From positions 1 to 64,000 of the forward strand of contig CAMWVE010000004.1 of NCBI GenBank assembly GCA_947177685.1: a stretch of 64,000 nucleotides of DNA. The letters are read 5' to 3'. Positions 22,886-30,236 of the stretch are shown here, one piece after another. This stretch comes from an uncultured Porphyromonadaceae bacterium. GTDB taxonomy: Bacteria > Bacteroidota > Bacteroidia > Bacteroidales > Muribaculaceae. A program made the translations under genes and the position numbers. The notes beneath the pieces were generated by a model, which saw only the letters and a list, made by a program, of their open reading frames with translations, did not search any database and was not told the origin of the DNA. Numbering within the stretch: position 1 is the stretch's first letter; the number at the start of each line of letters is the position of its first letter.

Positions 22886-23419
22886 ATGTTGTCAAGAATT
22901 GAAGAACTTTCACTGATTGCCCGGTGCATAGCGACTGATAATCGCGATGCCTTCGGGCAACTGGTGGTGGAGTATGAAGAAGGGCTGCGGCGCTTCCTCT
23001 ACAACCTCACCGGATGTGATGCTTCACTCACTGACGACATAGCTCAGGAAACATTTCTCAAAGCCTATCTGTCAATCCGTTCATTCCGCGGAATATCACG
23101 CTTCAAGACGTGGCTCTACCGGATTGCCTACAACGAGTTCATCACCTATCGGCGCAAATACGGGCAGGAATATGCCGCCGATGAGCTGACCACCATTGAT
23201 GAACCGCAGCACTCCCCTGCCGCAGGCACAGAGATTTCCGTGGATCTGCAGACAGCCATCAACAGCCTGCCTGACACCGAACGAACCATAGTATTGCTTT
23301 TCTACATGGAGGATTTACCCATAAAAAAGGTGTCACAGATTACAGGCTGCCCTGAAGGAACCGTAAAAAGCTATCTGAACCGCGCCCGCACCCGACTGGG
23401 CGAACTGTTAAACCAATAA
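22886..23419 (+). CDS. ECF-type RNA polymerase sigma factor
   Basis: A 177-aa sigma-70 family member of the extracytoplasmic-function group. Region 2 is seen as DDIAQETFLKAYLSIRSFRGISRFKTWLYRIAYNEF (only part quoted: TFLKAYLSIRSFRG), and region 4 as LPDTERTIVLLFYMEDLPIK followed by the helix-turn-helix GCPEGTVKSYLNRARTRL. Regions 1 and 3 are absent, as expected. It is the middle gene of a three-gene unit with a membrane protein before it and a small membrane protein 8 nt after. Both neighbours are candidates to control it. The regulon cannot be told from here. Confidence 0.93.
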   Translation: MLSRIEELSLIARCIATDNRDAFGQLVVEYEEGLRRFLYNLTGCDASLTDDIAQETFLKAYLSIRSFRGISRFKTWLYRIAYNEFITYRRKYGQEYAADELTTIDEPQHSPAAGTEISVDLQTAINSLPDTERTIVLLFYMEDLPIKKVSQITGCPEGTVKSYLNRARTRLGELLNQ

Positions 23420-23427
23420 CCTGCACG

Positions 23428-23745
23428 ATGAAAGAAAACGACTTAGACCGCCAACTGCGCGAAACCATAAAAAAAGAACTTCCCGAAGCACGCCGCGACG
23501 AGTGGTTCGTACGCAAAACCATGAACCGGCTGCCTGACAAACAGGTGCCGTTGTTCAGCCGATGGGAACGTCTGGCTTACCTGATGAGTGCCCTTATCCT
23601 GATAGTGATGTGGGTGTTCGCCGGCGTAGACATCATCAACAACCCCGTTCTCACCGTCAGCTCACTGCTCAAGCCGGCAGTGCTGTCACTGATGTCCCTG
23701 TCGCTTATGGCAGCCGTGGCTGTGCCCTACATGAAACGCAGCTGA
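23428..23745 (+). CDS. Small two-helix membrane protein, possible sigma regulator
   Basis: A 105-aa protein with a charged N-terminus (about 1-45, KENDLDRQLRETIKKELPEA) and two transmembrane helices (about 50-68 and 80-98). The layout, a short cytoplasmic N-terminus and membrane helices directly after an ECF sigma gene, is what a small anti-sigma factor or DUF5056-like protein looks like. No zinc-binding anti-sigma motif (HxxxCxxC) is present. It is 8 nt after the sigma gene. Assignment as regulator is inference from position. Confidence 0.65.
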   Translation: MKENDLDRQLRETIKKELPEARRDEWFVRKTMNRLPDKQVPLFSRWERLAYLMSALILIVMWVFAGVDIINNPVLTVSSLLKPAVLSLMSLSLMAAVAVPYMKRS

Positions 23746-23858
23746 AGTATTATTTACCGGCATTTATTACAGAATTTGCCGTGAGTATGTATCCCAAACT
23801 GCAACATCTGAATATATCCCTTGATATATAAATGGTTCGGTATAGGAATCTTTATGTT

Positions 23859-24407
23859 TCAATCGTATGCCCAGTTCATGTAGGATGGTGCATTCTTAAT
23901 GTATTTTAAGCCATCGTTTGTTAATTCGAACAGGAAATAAAGGGGGTCGTATGTAAATGGCAGATAATCGTTATCCAACTCAATCTGAACTTTTATGTGG
24001 CGTCCGCTTTTATCCGGAATCACGTCAATCAGATTATTTGCTTTTATAAAACATATATTGTCATCAACCTTTATATATCCGTCAAAATATCCTGGATCCA
24101 TACGGGAAGACTCCTTCACATAACAATAATTACGCCCATAGTACTTGAACATTTTTATATAATAATAAGGTTTGTATGGGTTTGGAGTACTTATGGTTTT
24201 GATGTATCGTACAGCATTTTCAAACACATTGGATTTAGTATTAAGTAGAGGGTATAAATATTGCGTCTCCCCAATATAGTTTGACGGATAACTAACCGTG
24301 ATTATATTCTCAGGAATACTGTTCGTGACAATTTCTCTTGAATTGTCAGAATGTATCAAGGGACTGCTACATAAAGCTATTAATGATATTATTGATCTGA
24401 AATACAT
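23859..24407 (-). CDS. Probable secreted immunity protein of the RHS-tip toxin
   Basis: A 182-aa exported protein of no family I recognise. It begins with a signal peptide (MYFRSIISLIALCSS..., about 1-20) at the ATG 24407, which I prefer over the in-frame ATG 17 codons upstream because that one has no signal. It is rich in Tyr, Asn and Ile and low in GC, like the whole island. It starts 41 bp inside the end of the toxin-like gene and is the next gene downstream of it, the classic place for an immunity gene in polymorphic-toxin loci. Export fits immunity to a toxin acting in the envelope, or periplasmic arrival of the toxin. No sequence motif proves immunity. Confidence 0.5.
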   Translation of the reverse strand: MYFRSIISLIALCSSPLIHSDNSREIVTNSIPENIITVSYPSNYIGETQYLYPLLNTKSNVFENAVRYIKTISTPNPYKPYYYIKMFKYYGRNYCYVKESSRMDPGYFDGYIKVDDNICFIKANNLIDVIPDKSGRHIKVQIELDNDYLPFTYDPLYFLFELTNDGLKYIKNAPSYMNWAYD

Positions 24408-25356
24408 AGGGGTGATATTTAGCTTGATAGGGATTAATTGGTGTATATTTTGCTCCAAAATCAGAATTTGTATATATGTAATGGTTTAGTTTCTTACCTG
24501 CTAATTCATCCATCTTTTTAAATGTTTCAATATCTCCATGTTTGTTATCAATATATAAACCAGATGGTTTAGAAATACTATTTGGATGATTATGAATATC
24601 ATTTTCGAAATCCACAGTTTTTACATTTTTAAGAATATATGAAGATCCAATATGAGCTCCATTGTCGTGAGAAGTTGAAAGTACGCCTATATAATTCCCT
24701 TTTGAATCAGAACCTTGCAAAAGACCCCATTCGACACTTGTAAAACAAGTCATATATTCAAATACGCGTTTAGAATTCTGTTCGCCATTAATGGTATAAA
24801 TATCAACTTTATATTCTCCAACTTTGTATTCCTTTCTTTCGAGAATAATAGAGCCATTAAGAAATGTCATGCAAGTTCCATCTATGACATTATCATTGCC
24901 ATCTACTATAGCTATTTTGTCCTCTCCTTTTTTTATTTCGTATTTTATAACATATCCTTCCTGATTAATATGTAATACATTCTCACCAGTTGGGTCTATG
25001 GAGTTAGCAAAATTCGCTCCACAAAAAGAGTAATGCGACATTGATGGATATTTAATATACTGTGGGTCGCCGGATTTGAAATCACAGAGGATAGGGTCAT
25101 GAAGGCGTGCTGTGTTGTCGTAGTAGTTCAGCCCTGACTGCCCCAACCAGTGGTTGCCTATGTGAAGGCGGTCTGTGGCAGGAGTCATGGCGTTAGTGGC
25201 ATTCGAGCGGTAGTCACATGGGAGAACGAAGGGAGTGCCTGATGGGTATAACCCTGTGCGCTGCACGGTGTTCCCCACACCTGCCGGTTGCACAGATACC
25301 GATAATAGGCGTAGTTGAATTACCTTTAATGGTTCACCAAAGTTTCCAAATATCAT
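24367..25356 (-). CDS. Orphan RHS C-terminal tip with a JAB-like toxin domain
   Basis: A 329-aa gene that encodes only the end of an RHS polymorphic toxin. Residues about 28-118 are the tail of the RHS core, ending with the conserved boundary SFCGANFANSIDPTGE; before it come TVQRTGLYPSGTPF and LNYYDNTARLHDP. Beyond that point the DNA becomes sharply AT-rich and the protein changes to a variable tip. The tip has E...HNHPNSISKPSG near 255, then a D-rich stretch, reminiscent of the JAMM/JAB metalloprotease signature found in Toxin-JAB tips. The first ~25 residues do not match RHS and look like the breakpoint. No secretion signal or full-length RHS gene is present, so it is an orphan module. The start is the first ATG available and is uncertain. 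Confidence 0.7.
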   Translation of the reverse strand: MIFGNFGEPLKVIQLRLLSVSVQPAGVGNTVQRTGLYPSGTPFVLPCDYRSNATNAMTPATDRLHIGNHWLGQSGLNYYDNTARLHDPILCDFKSGDPQYIKYPSMSHYSFCGANFANSIDPTGENVLHINQEGYVIKYEIKKGEDKIAIVDGNDNVIDGTCMTFLNGSIILERKEYKVGEYKVDIYTINGEQNSKRVFEYMTCFTSVEWGLLQGSDSKGNYIGVLSTSHDNGAHIGSSYILKNVKTVDFENDIHNHPNSISKPSGLYIDNKHGDIETFKKMDELAGKKLNHYIYTNSDFGAKYTPINPYQAKYHPYVFQINNIINSFM

Positions 25357-26032
25357 ATAATGGGTATTTCACAGTTCCTGCTTTTATTGCGACGACATTA
25401 CCCACATCGTTCACTTCCATTCTAATGATATCTACATCTATATTATTAGGGTTGTTCAATTTTAGCGGGATTATCTTCAATTTGTATTTATTTTGATACT
25501 GCTCGATGGAGGATTGATCAACGCAGATTATATCTATTCCTCTTATTTTATTATCCCAAAAATCTATTTGCGCCTTAGATAATTGGGGAATTAAAAACGA
25601 ATATTTTAAGATACTTTTATATGGCATCCCAACTTTAATAAAATCATTGAATTCTGTTCCAAAGTTATTAAGTGACAGACTCTCAAATTTGATATTTCTA
25701 TTTTCGAATGAGGTTGTAAATAATGTGTCCTTTTTATGAATATACAACGCATTATATCTATCAGGTTCTAATTCTGTGACAAAAATGTTCCATTCATCTA
25801 AATTTTTGAGAATATATGGTTTCTTGTAATTTGGGAAAGCCGATAATGAGCCAAACCATGGGCTTTTAAATAAATCTAACTTGTCTGACAAGATAACAAG
25901 ACTATTTTGGTTAGATGCTACACATTGTATGCTATCATAGGAATAAACCTCCGCATGCACGAAATCTATTGATTTAATCATGATCAGAAGTATAACTACC
26001 CATTTTTTTGAAAATCTGAATCTTTTTAACAT
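25334..26032 (-). CDS. Secreted protein with DLFKSPW motif (possible immunity paralogue A)
   Basis: A 232-aa protein with a basic, hydrophobic signal peptide (LKRFRFSKKWVVILLIM, about 1-24) from the ATG at 26032. Longer in-frame starts would overlap the upstream gene. The mature part begins with SLVILSDKLDLFKSPW, a block that recurs in the next gene. No enzyme motif is seen. The gene overlaps the RHS tip by 23 bp. Low GC and unusual codon use (AAT, TTA, ATA) mark it as acquired. It may be an immunity or partner gene for a different toxin, a role I infer from position and duplication only. Confidence 0.5.
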   Translation of the reverse strand: MLKRFRFSKKWVVILLIMIKSIDFVHAEVYSYDSIQCVASNQNSLVILSDKLDLFKSPWFGSLSAFPNYKKPYILKNLDEWNIFVTELEPDRYNALYIHKKDTLFTTSFENRNIKFESLSLNNFGTEFNDFIKVGMPYKSILKYSFLIPQLSKAQIDFWDNKIRGIDIICVDQSSIEQYQNKYKLKIIPLKLNNPNNIDVDIIRMEVNDVGNVVAIKAGTVKYPLYDIWKLW

Positions 26033-26057
26033 ATCTAAAAAAATATAATTGCAATAA

Positions 26058-26687
26058 TTAATCCAAAAAGTCAAGGCAGTTGAATTCTCCAAAACTTATT
26101 TTGGTGAGAATGCCTTTTTTAAATATCAACTGCATGGAATTAAAATCTGTCGGATAAAGTTCTCGATTATCCACTTTCTCATTTTCCAACTTTATATACA
26201 TTGTAAAGTTATACTCCCACCCCTTAATTAAATCATACGAATTATCAGTGGCGCAATGCAGAAATTGAAACTCCTGTATATCAGACCAACTCATGCCAAT
26301 GTATAAATATTCATTTAAACATGTACCCAGTGTGCCAAGATGAACGTCTGTTACTAAAACCATATCTGTATCATCTCCCAACCCATAAATTTCTCCTAAT
26401 ATCTCATCATTTTGGTGTTTATATCTTATACTTCTACGTTCCCCATCACCCAAACTTACACTAATCTCCCAATTGCTATATTGAGGGAACCGTTCCAATA
26501 TCGTCATTGGATAAATTAAAGTACCATATACCCCTGCTTTCCATGGGCTTTTAAATAGATCTACATTATCTGAAAAATAAACCAATTTATGAGATTTGCT
26601 TTCCTCCATTGCATTATCAAGATTGCCGGAATATGCAATCAAGCAATGGAAAGCAAAGATGATGAGAATTATACATCTAAATTTCAT
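26058..26687 (-). CDS. Secreted protein with DLFKSPW motif (possible immunity paralogue B)
   Basis: A 209-aa exported protein (signal peptide about 1-20, ending AYSG) whose mature start HKLVYFSDNVDLFKSPW matches the same block of the downstream gene, with SD, DLFKSPW and the following Pro aligned. Elsewhere the two differ a lot, though both are beta-rich and of like size. I take them as diverged tandem paralogues. It precedes paralogue A by 25 nt from stop to start. Function unknown. Confidence 0.55.
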   Translation of the reverse strand: MKFRCIILIIFAFHCLIAYSGNLDNAMEESKSHKLVYFSDNVDLFKSPWKAGVYGTLIYPMTILERFPQYSNWEISVSLGDGERRSIRYKHQNDEILGEIYGLGDDTDMVLVTDVHLGTLGTCLNEYLYIGMSWSDIQEFQFLHCATDNSYDLIKGWEYNFTMYIKLENEKVDNRELYPTDFNSMQLIFKKGILTKISFGEFNCLDFLD

Positions 26688-26727
26688 AAACTATTTGATT
26701 TTTATTTTTGACTATTATATCATTTTT

Positions 26728-27150
26728 TCAATATTGCAAATAATACAACCTATGTTTTATTCCATTAGGGAATGATGAAGCTCGCCAATTAATCCATCCC
26801 TCAACAAATTCTTTCTCATTAAATGCAAGATGAGACTTTACATAGAATCTGTCCTTGGATTTTTTTAGAATAAGGACTTGCTCGAAATTTTCCTATACAG
26901 AATCATTCTGCATATAGTCTGTTATTTCGTTTTCATTATTATATACCGGTATTTTCCCAAAATACTTCCAGTCTAAGAAACATTCAACAGGAGTAAAGTC
27001 TGATGCGCTAATCTCGCTTTCTGTCAATTTAAGATTGAACTCAATATTATAAAATTCTTTGAGAGTCTTATAAAATTTAATCTCATTAAAACTATTAATA
27101 TTAAATTCTGACAGCACTAAGAATAATAGTATAATTGTTATTTTTTTCAT
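26728..27150 (-). pseudogene. Amber-interrupted secreted protein gene
   Basis: The reading frame starts at 27150 with a signal peptide (MKKITIILLFLVLSEFNIN) and runs 85 codons to a TAG at 26895-26893. The same frame then stays open for 54 more codons (ENFEQVLILKKSKDRFYVK onward) to a TGA at 26730-26728, with no other stop. The tail reads as a plausible folded beta-rich protein (FVEGWINWRASSFPN), so the TAG probably splits what was a 140-aa protein. A sequencing error or readthrough are alternatives. A possible -7 box TAACTTTA lies at 27193-27200 on the minus strand. Confidence 0.6.
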
Positions 27151-27420
27151 TTTCTAACAATTGTTTCATGGCAATGAAATTAGATTTTGCCGTAAAGTTA
27201 GCTTTAAGACACTGATAAAGCAAGTGATTTTAGTTAAAACTATTTGTTAATTCTGTTAATTACTCCAATTTATTACAATAAAAACACAGATACTCCAATA
27301 TATTTTTCAAAATAAAACATAAAACCCAAAATTCATATCAAAATAACAAAAAAATATCATCGATGAACCCGGCTCGGTGTCCCGGCTCAATGGCTCGCGA
27401 TGAACAATATATAGAAAAAA
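27151..27420. other. AT-rich gene-free right edge of the island
   Basis: Very AT-rich to about 27360. On the minus strand TAACTTTA (27193-27200, one base off TAnnTTTG) with CTTG 20 nt upstream is a weak promoter candidate for the island. GC content rises abruptly at 27361. I see no coding signal, attachment site or flanking direct repeat. Confidence 0.4.
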
Positions 27421-27456
27421 GTTGCCCCCACAAGCACTTGGTCTTGCGGGGGCAAC
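27421..27456 (-). terminator. Terminator of the LRR gene
   Basis: A 14-bp stem GTTGCCCCCACAAG / CTTGCGGGGGCAAC (one mismatch), loop 8 nt, followed on the minus strand by TTTTTT. Confidence 0.9.
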
Positions 27457-27479
27457 CTCCTATTTATAGAATCGGTCGG

Positions 27480-28538
27480 TTAGTAGTTCCATTGACATGC
27501 CACCATTCTGAGGTTATCGCATCCGATTGTACGGAGGTCAGTGATAACATTGAATCGGCAGTTGATGTAAGTAAGAGCTGAGTCGAACGAAACATCTACG
27601 GTGTTAAGCTGGTTGTTGTTGCAAAGCAGACGCTGCAGGAAGGTCTGGTTTGAAAGGTCGAGACGGGTAAGGTCGTTGTAAGAGCAGTCGATGAAGATGA
27701 TCTGCGGGCAACCCTGAACGTCGAGTGTGGTGAGGTCGTTGTAAGAGCAAACCAAGTCAAGAAGAGCGTTGCAGTTACGGACACCCAGAGTGGTCATGTG
27801 GTTGTCAGAGCAAACGAATGAGCTGAGTGAGGGGAGACCTGAAACAATCATTGTGGTGATTTCGTTGTCGTCAACATTGAGGTTGGTGAGGTTTTCAACA
27901 CCCATCATGTTGAGTGAGGTCAGTTTGTTGTAACCGCAGTAGAGGTTCTTCAGGTTAGCACAACCGGTGATGAGGAGTGATTCAAGGTGGCAACCCTGTA
28001 CGTTAAGAGTCTTAAGGTTAGCGAGGTTGGAGAAGTTGAGAACAGTGAAGTAGTTGTTAGAACAGTTCATGGTCTCAAGGAAGGGTGTGTTCTGGAAGTC
28101 AACGTCAGTCAGACGGTTTTTGTAGATGTTAACCTTGGTGAGCTGGTTGCAGCCTGTCACGTCAAGTGTGGTGAGGGCGTTGCGCTGAGCGTCAAGTTCT
28201 GAGAGAACTGCGTCGCCTGCCAGATTCAGTGAAGTGAGTTTGTTACGCTGAACGTCAACTTTTTTGAGGGCGGTGAAGTTCGAGAGGTCGAGAGAACCTG
28301 CGATTTTCTTATCTTTCCAGTCGATGGCGGTGATATGACCGTTTTCAACTGTCACACCTTCCCAAGTTGAGGGAGCGTTGAGATCTGCGATGCGGAGAGC
28401 ATCTGCGTTAGTACCATTTTCCTGTGCGGGTTGTGACAAGAATGCTTTTAGTTGAGCCATTTCTTTCTTGTCCATTTTCTGTGCAAACGCTACTAAACTA
28501 CCGAGAACGATTGCAAATAATAATACTGCTTTTTTCAT
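27480..28538 (-). CDS. Secreted leucine-rich repeat protein
   Basis: A 352-aa exported protein with a signal peptide (1-19, ending AFA-Q) followed by a short helical region (KEMAQLKAFLSQPAQENG) and then LRRs to the last residue. From about residue 110 the repeats are exactly 21 residues long, for example LTTLDVTGCNQLTKVNIYKNR with the same spacing eleven times. The last repeat ends CQWNY, with no C-terminal sorting domain, lipobox or anchor. LRRs of this kind bind proteins; surface or secreted location is inferred from the signal peptide. It has its own terminator and no coupled neighbour. Confidence 0.88.
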   Translation of the reverse strand: MKKAVLLFAIVLGSLVAFAQKMDKKEMAQLKAFLSQPAQENGTNADALRIADLNAPSTWEGVTVENGHITAIDWKDKKIAGSLDLSNFTALKKVDVQRNKLTSLNLAGDAVLSELDAQRNALTTLDVTGCNQLTKVNIYKNRLTDVDFQNTPFLETMNCSNNYFTVLNFSNLANLKTLNVQGCHLESLLITGCANLKNLYCGYNKLTSLNMMGVENLTNLNVDDNEITTMIVSGLPSLSSFVCSDNHMTTLGVRNCNALLDLVCSYNDLTTLDVQGCPQIIFIDCSYNDLTRLDLSNQTFLQRLLCNNNQLNTVDVSFDSALTYINCRFNVITDLRTIGCDNLRMVACQWNY

Positions 28539-28688
28539 ATAAATAGAATTTTAAATAGGTTTTCGATTTTGTTTTGATCTTAATTACACTTATATAACAC
28601 AATCAGATGAAAAAAGTTTTTTGAAAGTTCAATTTTTTTTAATTATTTTTTCAATTTGTTTTAGCTGTCATGGCTTACAGTCTGATAA

Positions 28689-30236
28689 TCAGAATGGTTG
28701 AGGCTGTTCACCCGGTTCAGGAAAAATGTCGGGGAGGGGTGAATTATTTTCCTGCGCACCCAACATGATGCCTGCGGCAGGATTATTCAGGCGCGAGCCT
28801 ATGACTGACTCGGAGGTGGTGAAGTCTGTCTCAGTCCAGTTTTCGAAACGGGCGAACTTGCTGCGGAAGCGCATGTCAACGTCAGCCGTGGAGCCTGAGC
28901 GGTGCTTGGCTATGATGAACTCAGCCTTGCCGCGAATATCCCTACCCTCGGCATCGACTCCGCTCTTGAGATAATATTCCGGACGGTGAATGAAGCATAC
29001 GATGTCGGCATCCTGCTCGATGGCACCGGACTCACGGAGGTCGGAGAGTTGCGGTTTCTTTCCGTCGGTGCGGTTCTCTACCTGACGGTTAAGCTGCGAC
29101 AGGGCAATGATGGGGATGTTAAGTTCCTTGGCAAGCTGCTTGAGCGAGCGTGAAATCATGCTGACCTCCTGCTCACGGCTGCCGAACTTCATGCCGGAGG
29201 CGTTCATCAGCTGCAGGTAGTCGATGATGATGAGCTGCACCTGATGTTCGCGCACCAGACGGCGTGCCTTTGTACGCAGCTCGAAGATGGAGAGCGAAGG
29301 TGTGTCATCGATGAACAACGGGGCGCCGTAAAGATGCTTTATGCGCGACATCAGCTGGTCCCATTCCATTTCGGTGAGGCGACCGCTCTTGATTTTCTCA
29401 CCCTCGAGTTCACACACATTGCTTATCAAACGGTTAAGCAGCTGAATGTTTGACATTTCAAGCGAGAACACGGCAATGGGGGTGTTGTAGTTCACCGCCA
29501 TGTTCTTTGCCATGGAGAGGACAAAGGCGGTCTTACCCATGGCAGGGCGTGCGGCGATGATAATAAGGTCAGAGTTCTGCCATCCGGAGGTGATGCGGTC
29601 CAGATCATGATATCCGGTTTCCAGTCCGCTCAGTCCGCTCGTGCGGTTGGCAGCATTCTGAATCTGCTCCAGTGCCTGTTGTATGACGGGGTCGATCTGC
29701 GTCACATCTTTTTTCACATTACGCTGTGAAATCTCGAAGAGCTTACCCTCGGCTTCCTGCAGCAGGTCGTCCACATCGTTGCTCTCGTCAAATGCTTTCG
29801 ACTCTATTTCGGAAGAGAAACGAATCAGTTCGCGTGCCAGATATTTCTGCGCCACGATGCGGGCATGATATTCGACATGAGCTCCCGACGCCACGCGCGA
29901 AGTGAGGTCAGCTATATACATGGGTCCGCCCACTTTGTCGAGCAGGTCCATCTGGCGCAACTGTTCGGTCACCGTCAGCATGTCAATCGGCTCCTGTGCT
30001 GCGCCTAACGCCTGCACTGCGGAATAAATGTGCTGGTGAGCGGGTTCATAGAAGCTTTCCGGTTTCAGAATGTCGCATACCTCGGTGTAGGCATCCTTCT
30101 CAAGCATCAGCGCGCCTAACACGGCTGCCTCAATTTCAATGTCACGCGGCTGCAGACGTCCGCCGGTGGCATACATTGAATCGTGTTGCGGTTTTTTGTC
30201 GGAACGAGGGGTGGTATTCTCGAATTTCATACTCAT
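28689..30236 (-). CDS. dnaB: Replicative DNA helicase
   Basis: A 515-aa DnaB, the hexameric 5'-3' replicative helicase. The N-terminal domain begins at LQPRDIEIEAAVLGALM; the RecA-like domain has Walker A AARPAMGKT, the Walker B-like LIIIDYLQLM, and arginine-finger region KHRSGSTADVDMRF. A linker helix and the C-terminal tail are complete. I place the start at the ATG 30236 (an ATG at 30230 is equally possible), because the longer frame to 30284 lies upstream of the -7 box TAACTTTG at 30255-30262. Monocistronic. Confidence 0.96.
   Translation of the reverse strand: MSMKFENTTPRSDKKPQHDSMYATGGRLQPRDIEIEAAVLGALMLEKDAYTEVCDILKPESFYEPAHQHIYSAVQALGAAQEPIDMLTVTEQLRQMDLLDKVGGPMYIADLTSRVASGAHVEYHARIVAQKYLARELIRFSSEIESKAFDESNDVDDLLQEAEGKLFEISQRNVKKDVTQIDPVIQQALEQIQNAANRTSGLSGLETGYHDLDRITSGWQNSDLIIIAARPAMGKTAFVLSMAKNMAVNYNTPIAVFSLEMSNIQLLNRLISNVCELEGEKIKSGRLTEMEWDQLMSRIKHLYGAPLFIDDTPSLSIFELRTKARRLVREHQVQLIIIDYLQLMNASGMKFGSREQEVSMISRSLKQLAKELNIPIIALSQLNRQVENRTDGKKPQLSDLRESGAIEQDADIVCFIHRPEYYLKSGVDAEGRDIRGKAEFIIAKHRSGSTADVDMRFRSKFARFENWTETDFTTSESVIGSRLNNPAAGIMLGAQENNSPLPDIFPEPGEQPQPF

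Follow-up and report, generated by a model that had tools for sequence, protein, structure and literature searches.

An orphan RHS toxin tip of the JAB1 type with small exported-like neighbours in a Muribaculaceae genome: a probable displaced toxin-immunity cassette

The window analysed here is a stretch of 64,000 nucleotides (nt) from a 112-kb contig of an uncultured Muribaculaceae genome (2.40 Mb in 55 contigs, 98.7% complete; G000 in our genome set), and the subject of this report is an AT-rich island at 23859-27150 that carries the end of an RHS polymorphic toxin. The island holds five open reading frames (ORFs), all on the minus strand. In the order of that strand they are up3 (27150-26728), up2 (26687-26058), up1 (26032-25334), the orphan RHS ORF (25356-24367) and a last, downstream gene (24407-23859). 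The GC content of the island is 0.331, as against 0.491 on the left and 0.493 on the right in the rest of the window; all 15 of the lowest-GC stretches of 3,292 nt listed by a scan of the window in 100-nt steps overlap it. At third codon positions the GC content is 0.29-0.41 in the island genes, the RHS core piece apart (0.505), versus 0.48-0.65 in the six neighbours measured.

The orphan RHS ORF consists of two unlike parts. The first (24984..25330, minus strand) is a fragment of the RHS-associated core that ends in DPTG near 24984, has a GC content of 0.52 and is present in a single copy in the genome. It matches TIGR03696 with 30.9 bits, just below the cut-off of 32.5, and aligns nonetheless with the RHS cores of relatives. 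According to a DNA alignment to G003, a genome of the same genus, the ~27 residues at the start of the ORF do not follow the reading frame of the RHS core, and the matching DNA at the 5' end of the core is about 25 nt shorter than in G003; close to 300 nt of in-frame core are left (about 24984-25280). The GC content then falls from 0.521 in 24984-25300 to 0.295 in 24367-24983. This second part (24367..24983, minus strand) is a JAB-like toxin tip: it matches Toxin-JAB1 (Pfam PF15659) with an E-value of 1.7e-14 and 54.5 bits, the cut-off being 21, and agrees with the JAB/JAMM (deaminase-like) fold by which that family is defined. The E, HxHP, S and D of the JAB motif (NxxxE, HxH, S, D) are kept; the N position is F both in the window and in G003, and there is an insert between S and D. 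Both of the named matches of the tip protein come from Muribaculaceae. The ATG of the ORF overlaps the end of up1 by 23 nt. Since the tip has neither an RHS body nor a signal peptide, it probably cannot be delivered.

The downstream gene (23859..24407, minus strand) is the likely immunity partner of the tip and a predicted exported protein, as its product begins with a hydrophobic stretch. The proposed pairing rests on position, on overlap (the ATG at 24407 sits 41 nt inside the tip ORF) and on homology to a gene in an array of the same kind in G003. That genome encodes a 1098-aa DUF6443-RHS-JAB1 protein followed by three small genes, the third of which (188 aa) is homologous to the downstream gene (E 1.9e-20, 27.5% identity); there, too, the first ATG of the gene after RHS lies inside the RHS frame. 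A profile of the downstream-gene family finds 9 places in 3 of the 297 genomes of our family sample. G003 accounts for seven of these places (including one weak match), and the window genome and G104 for one each, that in G104 being weak; the profile was built from the G003 and window rows, so that matches in these two arise by construction. The G104 place is near a contig start, with no tip in view.

Upstream of the tip, up1 (25334..26032, ATG at 26032) and up2 (26058..26687) are paralogues (BLASTP E 5e-11) and predicted exported proteins, the hydrophobic N-terminus of up2 being read from the sequence. Judging by their position and export-like starts, they are likely to be immunity genes of lost tips. 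Neither has a relative beyond chance level in our wider set of 397 genomes, where up1 gave three chance-level matches, or among 5.8 billion proteins. The small gene up3 (26728..27150) also begins like an export signal; in translation its frame is closed by an in-frame stop at 26895, followed by 54 more open codons up to a second stop at 26730. A minus-strand ORF at 26893-27150, which had been taken for a whole gene, does exist, and it turns out to be the first part of this longer interrupted frame. Neither piece of up3 has a relative in the fetched loci searched. We presume that up3 is a broken immunity-like gene, or else that the stop is a sequencing error.

Most of what the first-pass annotation, made from the letters of the window, had reported of the locus holds. 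Five minus-strand genes are far more AT-rich than their neighbours (GC 0.33 versus 0.49). One of them encodes only the end of an RHS protein, with the core running to DPTG and an abrupt fall in GC after it, as the TIGR03696 match and the GC values above indicate. The toxin identity of the tip is supported by the Toxin-JAB1 match in the profile search, the ORF list confirms that no full-length RHS gene adjoins the tip, and the neighbours do look like small exported proteins in the position of immunity genes, since export-signal-like starts are seen in them.

The relatives provide the full-length form of the gene. The G003 RHS protein has matches in 3 of the 8 same-genus genomes, and a full-length protein with this core is found only in G003; in G005, of the same genus, there are four RHS matches, all in frames of 130-347 aa. 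One of the G005 loci (C19, L036:311-3837) carries a core fragment of this lineage that is interrupted by a stop and joined to another tip, in which a metallopeptidase-like motif (HEWYGHGIKY) is visible by eye and which has no Pfam match; several small genes with export-like starts, again by eye, belong to this locus. In G003 the RHS-JAB1 end with its three small genes is present twice (L034 and L035, on contigs C11 and C24), with 95% identity over the RHS part and Ns in the C11 copy, which can be two strain versions in a metagenome-assembled genome or a duplication. In the full-length RHS locus of G003 the two large genes have between them a frame (L034:8757-9818) whose protein matches the sorting domain of the type IX secretion system (T9SS) in TIGR04183 with 24.5 bits (cut-off 23) and in Pfam PF18962 with 19.7, less than the 27 required there, a hint that the RHS system of G003 may use T9SS. 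Two further proteins with the same core lineage (P0005 and P0006) have tips that match YkuD (L,D-transpeptidase) with 21.6 and 21.1 bits, just below the cut-off of 23.4; this would be another envelope-directed activity. In P0014 (446 aa) a signal-like start, by eye, is joined directly to an RHS core and tip, possibly a mini-RHS with an export signal of its own and no long RHS body.

How usual the features of the window are can be judged from the family. Over 52 RHS core ends in the fetched loci the mean GC content falls from 0.536 to 0.356, and the fall exceeds 0.05 in 48 of them; these 52 are what is left after removal of matches with E above 1e-3, of those that stop short of the core model's end or lie too close to a locus edge, of exact duplicates and of repeat loci. 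The window's own end (L003) is included, and one genome contributes two copies (L004 and L026). By the same measure the window goes from 0.485 to 0.307, which is typical. The GC drop after DPxG is general to RHS tips and no special sign of this locus; a Serratia rhs locus shows it as well (67.7% versus 46.4%; Jackson et al. 2009, PMC2935791). The orphan state of the tip is hardly special either. Toxin-JAB1 is found at 41 places in 28 of the 297 family genomes, where 5 of the 41 frames exceed 1000 aa and 29 are of 520 aa or less, some of these being cut by contig ends. Among the 30 JAB1 loci read, 19 frames are closed upstream at 144-619 aa, 7 have no end in view inside the locus and 4 continue to a contig edge, so short closed frames are the usual form seen. 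Some genomes (e.g., G012:C21 and G010:C16) have a full-length frame followed by short ones on the same strand, which is the usual displacement array.

The genes next to the JAB1 tips share one property. An export-like start was found in 27 of 29 such genes, while among control genes (150-320 aa) the figure was 16 of 42 (Fisher p 1.5e-6; p 2.4e-6 without the window's own locus). The 29 are the 30 loci of the 41 JAB1 matches less one without room for a next gene, the window's own included, and the test is a crude hydrophobicity rule and not a trained predictor, with several start codons tried for cases and controls alike. As to the two exceptions, one gene is 184 nt away and the other stands behind a 71-aa fragment at a contig edge. 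If the window's own gene and these two are set aside, the other 26 neighbours form 17 sequence groups, 13 of them with a single member and 4 that share the remaining 13 genes, so that the shared start is not due to one recent common gene. These frequencies point to the cell envelope and not to a cytoplasmic nuclease; they are in accord with action in the envelope and with a retained, exported immunity, without being a proof. Zhang et al. (2012, PMC3482391) suggested that toxin JAB domains might be nucleases, and yet noted one lipoprotein partner, Imm65, for Tox-JAB-1; the frequent export-like start behind JAB1 tips speaks against the nuclease suggestion. It is tempting to propose that the JAB1-type RHS tips of Bacteroidales are envelope metallopeptidases and that cells lacking any full-length toxin to match keep, in the periplasm, banks of fast-changing exported immunity proteins against them. 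We put this forward tentatively, as a generalisation that is rather unlikely to hold; if true, it would describe a periplasmic RHS counterpart of the orphan-immunity arrays.

The parent gene was looked for in the window genome. The core DNA has no second copy there, only chance matches of 14-22 nt; a search with the tip protein at E 1 gives no match but itself, and no DUF6443 gene exceeds the cut-off (best 12.7 bits versus 27.8). The only other RHS gene found (C2:132231-135251, or L033:15232-18252; a YD-repeat protein of 1006 aa if read from its first start) stops 60 nt short of a contig end, with its downstream genes out of view, and its core (at C2:134340) is of a divergent lineage, being 29-30% identical to the G003 RHS protein in two stretches. 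Upstream of the tip there is no intact rhs gene with a near-identical core. "Displaced" is therefore a history deduced from the relatives and not seen at the locus. The marker of the type VI secretion system (T6SS) PF05943 (VipB) is found in none of the 8 genus genomes; among 14 controls it matched only E. coli, so a Bacteroidales-type T6SS could escape it.

We believe that the island is probably a displaced toxin-immunity cassette without its parent gene, made up of a core fragment, a JAB-like tip, its likely partner (predicted to be exported) and, upstream, two open genes and a stop-interrupted one that are likely immunity genes of lost tips, and that it is likely kept, if at all, for immunity. 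An incoming tip would have taken the place of an older one at the end of a full-length RHS gene, by C-terminal displacement as in enterobacterial rhs; later on, the full-length gene would have disappeared, or the array of cassettes would have been relocated; and JAB1-type tips arriving from neighbouring cells would still be bound, in the periplasm, by the exported proteins. An artefact of assembly does not account for the missing body, because the tip sits within a 112-kb contig, and comparison with relatives yields both a matching full-length gene and a homologue of the downstream gene in G003. Several points weigh on the other side. The G003 tip matches JAB1 with 19.8 bits, just below the cut-off of 21, and is for this reason absent from the count over the 297 genomes. 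The identity between the downstream gene and its G003 homologue is just 27.5%, and in G003 the homologue stands third, not first, behind the tip; compared with the genes next to other JAB1 tips the downstream gene has no phmmer match at E 10 and a best hhalign probability of 24.5%, and no Pfam immunity family was found for it or for the 26 neighbours of other JAB1 tips. The genes up1 and up2 have no relatives, so that position and a hydrophobic start are the whole case for their immunity role, and the broken up3 fits decay equally well. The absence of the parent gene from a 55-contig draft is no proof, and the same-genus genomes are drafts too.

Decay has to be considered in its own right. The array could be a silent remnant of an RHS locus that is being lost, with no present function, as would suit the interrupted up3, the shortened and out-of-frame 5' end of the core, the missing full-length gene and the promoter search, which found no significant Bacteroidales-type promoter upstream (the score was reached by 396 of 500 shuffles); the rhs fragments of Serratia, as described by Jackson et al. 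(2009, PMC2935791), are mostly likely silent and two are further degenerated. However, the frames of the tip, the downstream gene and the paralogues up1 and up2 are uninterrupted, the JAB residues are conserved and export-like starts are still present in the three small genes that are open, and we regard a functionless relict as unlikely, if by no means far-fetched. The first-pass annotation had offered two reasons for keeping the tip, immunity or use as a reservoir from which a full-length toxin elsewhere in the genome could recombine. The former is the one that we favour, if the cassette is kept at all. For the latter, a crossover in the core fragment would join the tip to a full-length RHS gene of its lineage; in its favour, an in-frame core of close to 300 nt is left, and relatives have this core lineage with other tips (e.g., the YkuD-like ones of P0005 and P0006). 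The search of the draft assembly for a full-length gene sharing the core found none, the other RHS core is of a different lineage, and the fragment lies in the middle of a 112-kb contig, which a near-identical repeat should have broken, so we consider a reservoir very improbable. It is just as hard to believe that the tip is expressed inside the cell as half of an internal toxin-antitoxin pair, a role that an orphan rhs gene is reported to have in Salmonella (PMC7043789): the overlap of its ATG with up1 makes translational coupling possible, whereas the export-like start of the likely partner would put toxin and antitoxin in different compartments. A displaced cassette remains our preferred explanation.

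The island is flanked on one side by a leucine-rich repeat gene and on the other by two converging genes, one encoding a sigma factor and one a small protein that matches DUF5056 weakly. After the former gene stands a terminator-like hairpin of 19 pairs with a T run (27416..27461, minus strand) that likely separates the island from upstream transcription; the hairpin scan is by itself no proof of function, because it found 2 sites against a shuffle mean of 2.2.

Published work already covers C-terminal displacement, orphan tips and the keeping of such tips together with immunity genes (PMC2935791, PMC8125069, PMC5727410). Among the papers searched, none on JAB1 orphan tips of this lineage was found, judging by titles and the beginnings of abstracts. 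The rAID orphan immunity arrays share with the island the co-oriented short genes and orphan immunity proteins; here a toxin tip is present in addition, no tyrosine recombinase was matched among the five island ORFs and the four adjacent genes scanned, and no repeated intergenic element stood out in 23400-28700, the rAID motif itself not being searched. The Tox-JAB-1/Imm65 pair of Bacteroidetes (Zhang et al. 2012, PMC3482391) has in common with it the RHS-linked JAB1 domain, the E/HxH/S/D residues and a partner with a signal peptide, which is Imm65 there. In the window the N of NxxxE is F, and the exported neighbours suggest action in the envelope in place of the nuclease of that paper; Imm65 is not among the Pfam results for the window gene, where the presence of an Imm65 model in Pfam was not checked. 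The orphan Rhs toxin domains of the bee gut bacterium Gilliamella apicola (PMC8125069) likewise come with linked immunity genes and without a full-length Rhs, and a defensive role has been proposed for them; they are discussed in that paper as T6SS-linked, whereas the parent gene of the window tip has no known delivery system. The orphan rhs tips of Jackson et al. (2009, PMC2935791), left behind by C-terminal displacement, have the same core fragment followed by a lower-GC tip, the same partial degeneration and lack of an RHS body; unlike the arrangement set out there, the island has no intact rhs upstream and no identical core in the genome, and its array starts with small predicted exported genes. 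Orphan tips are common and already described, and the island is a new example of a known arrangement. Apparent C-terminal displacement cassettes occur here in a Bacteroidales lineage with no parent gene in the assembly, and they offer a concrete case on which to test whether the retention of orphan tips serves immunity or such tips are junk, and where JAB1 toxins act.

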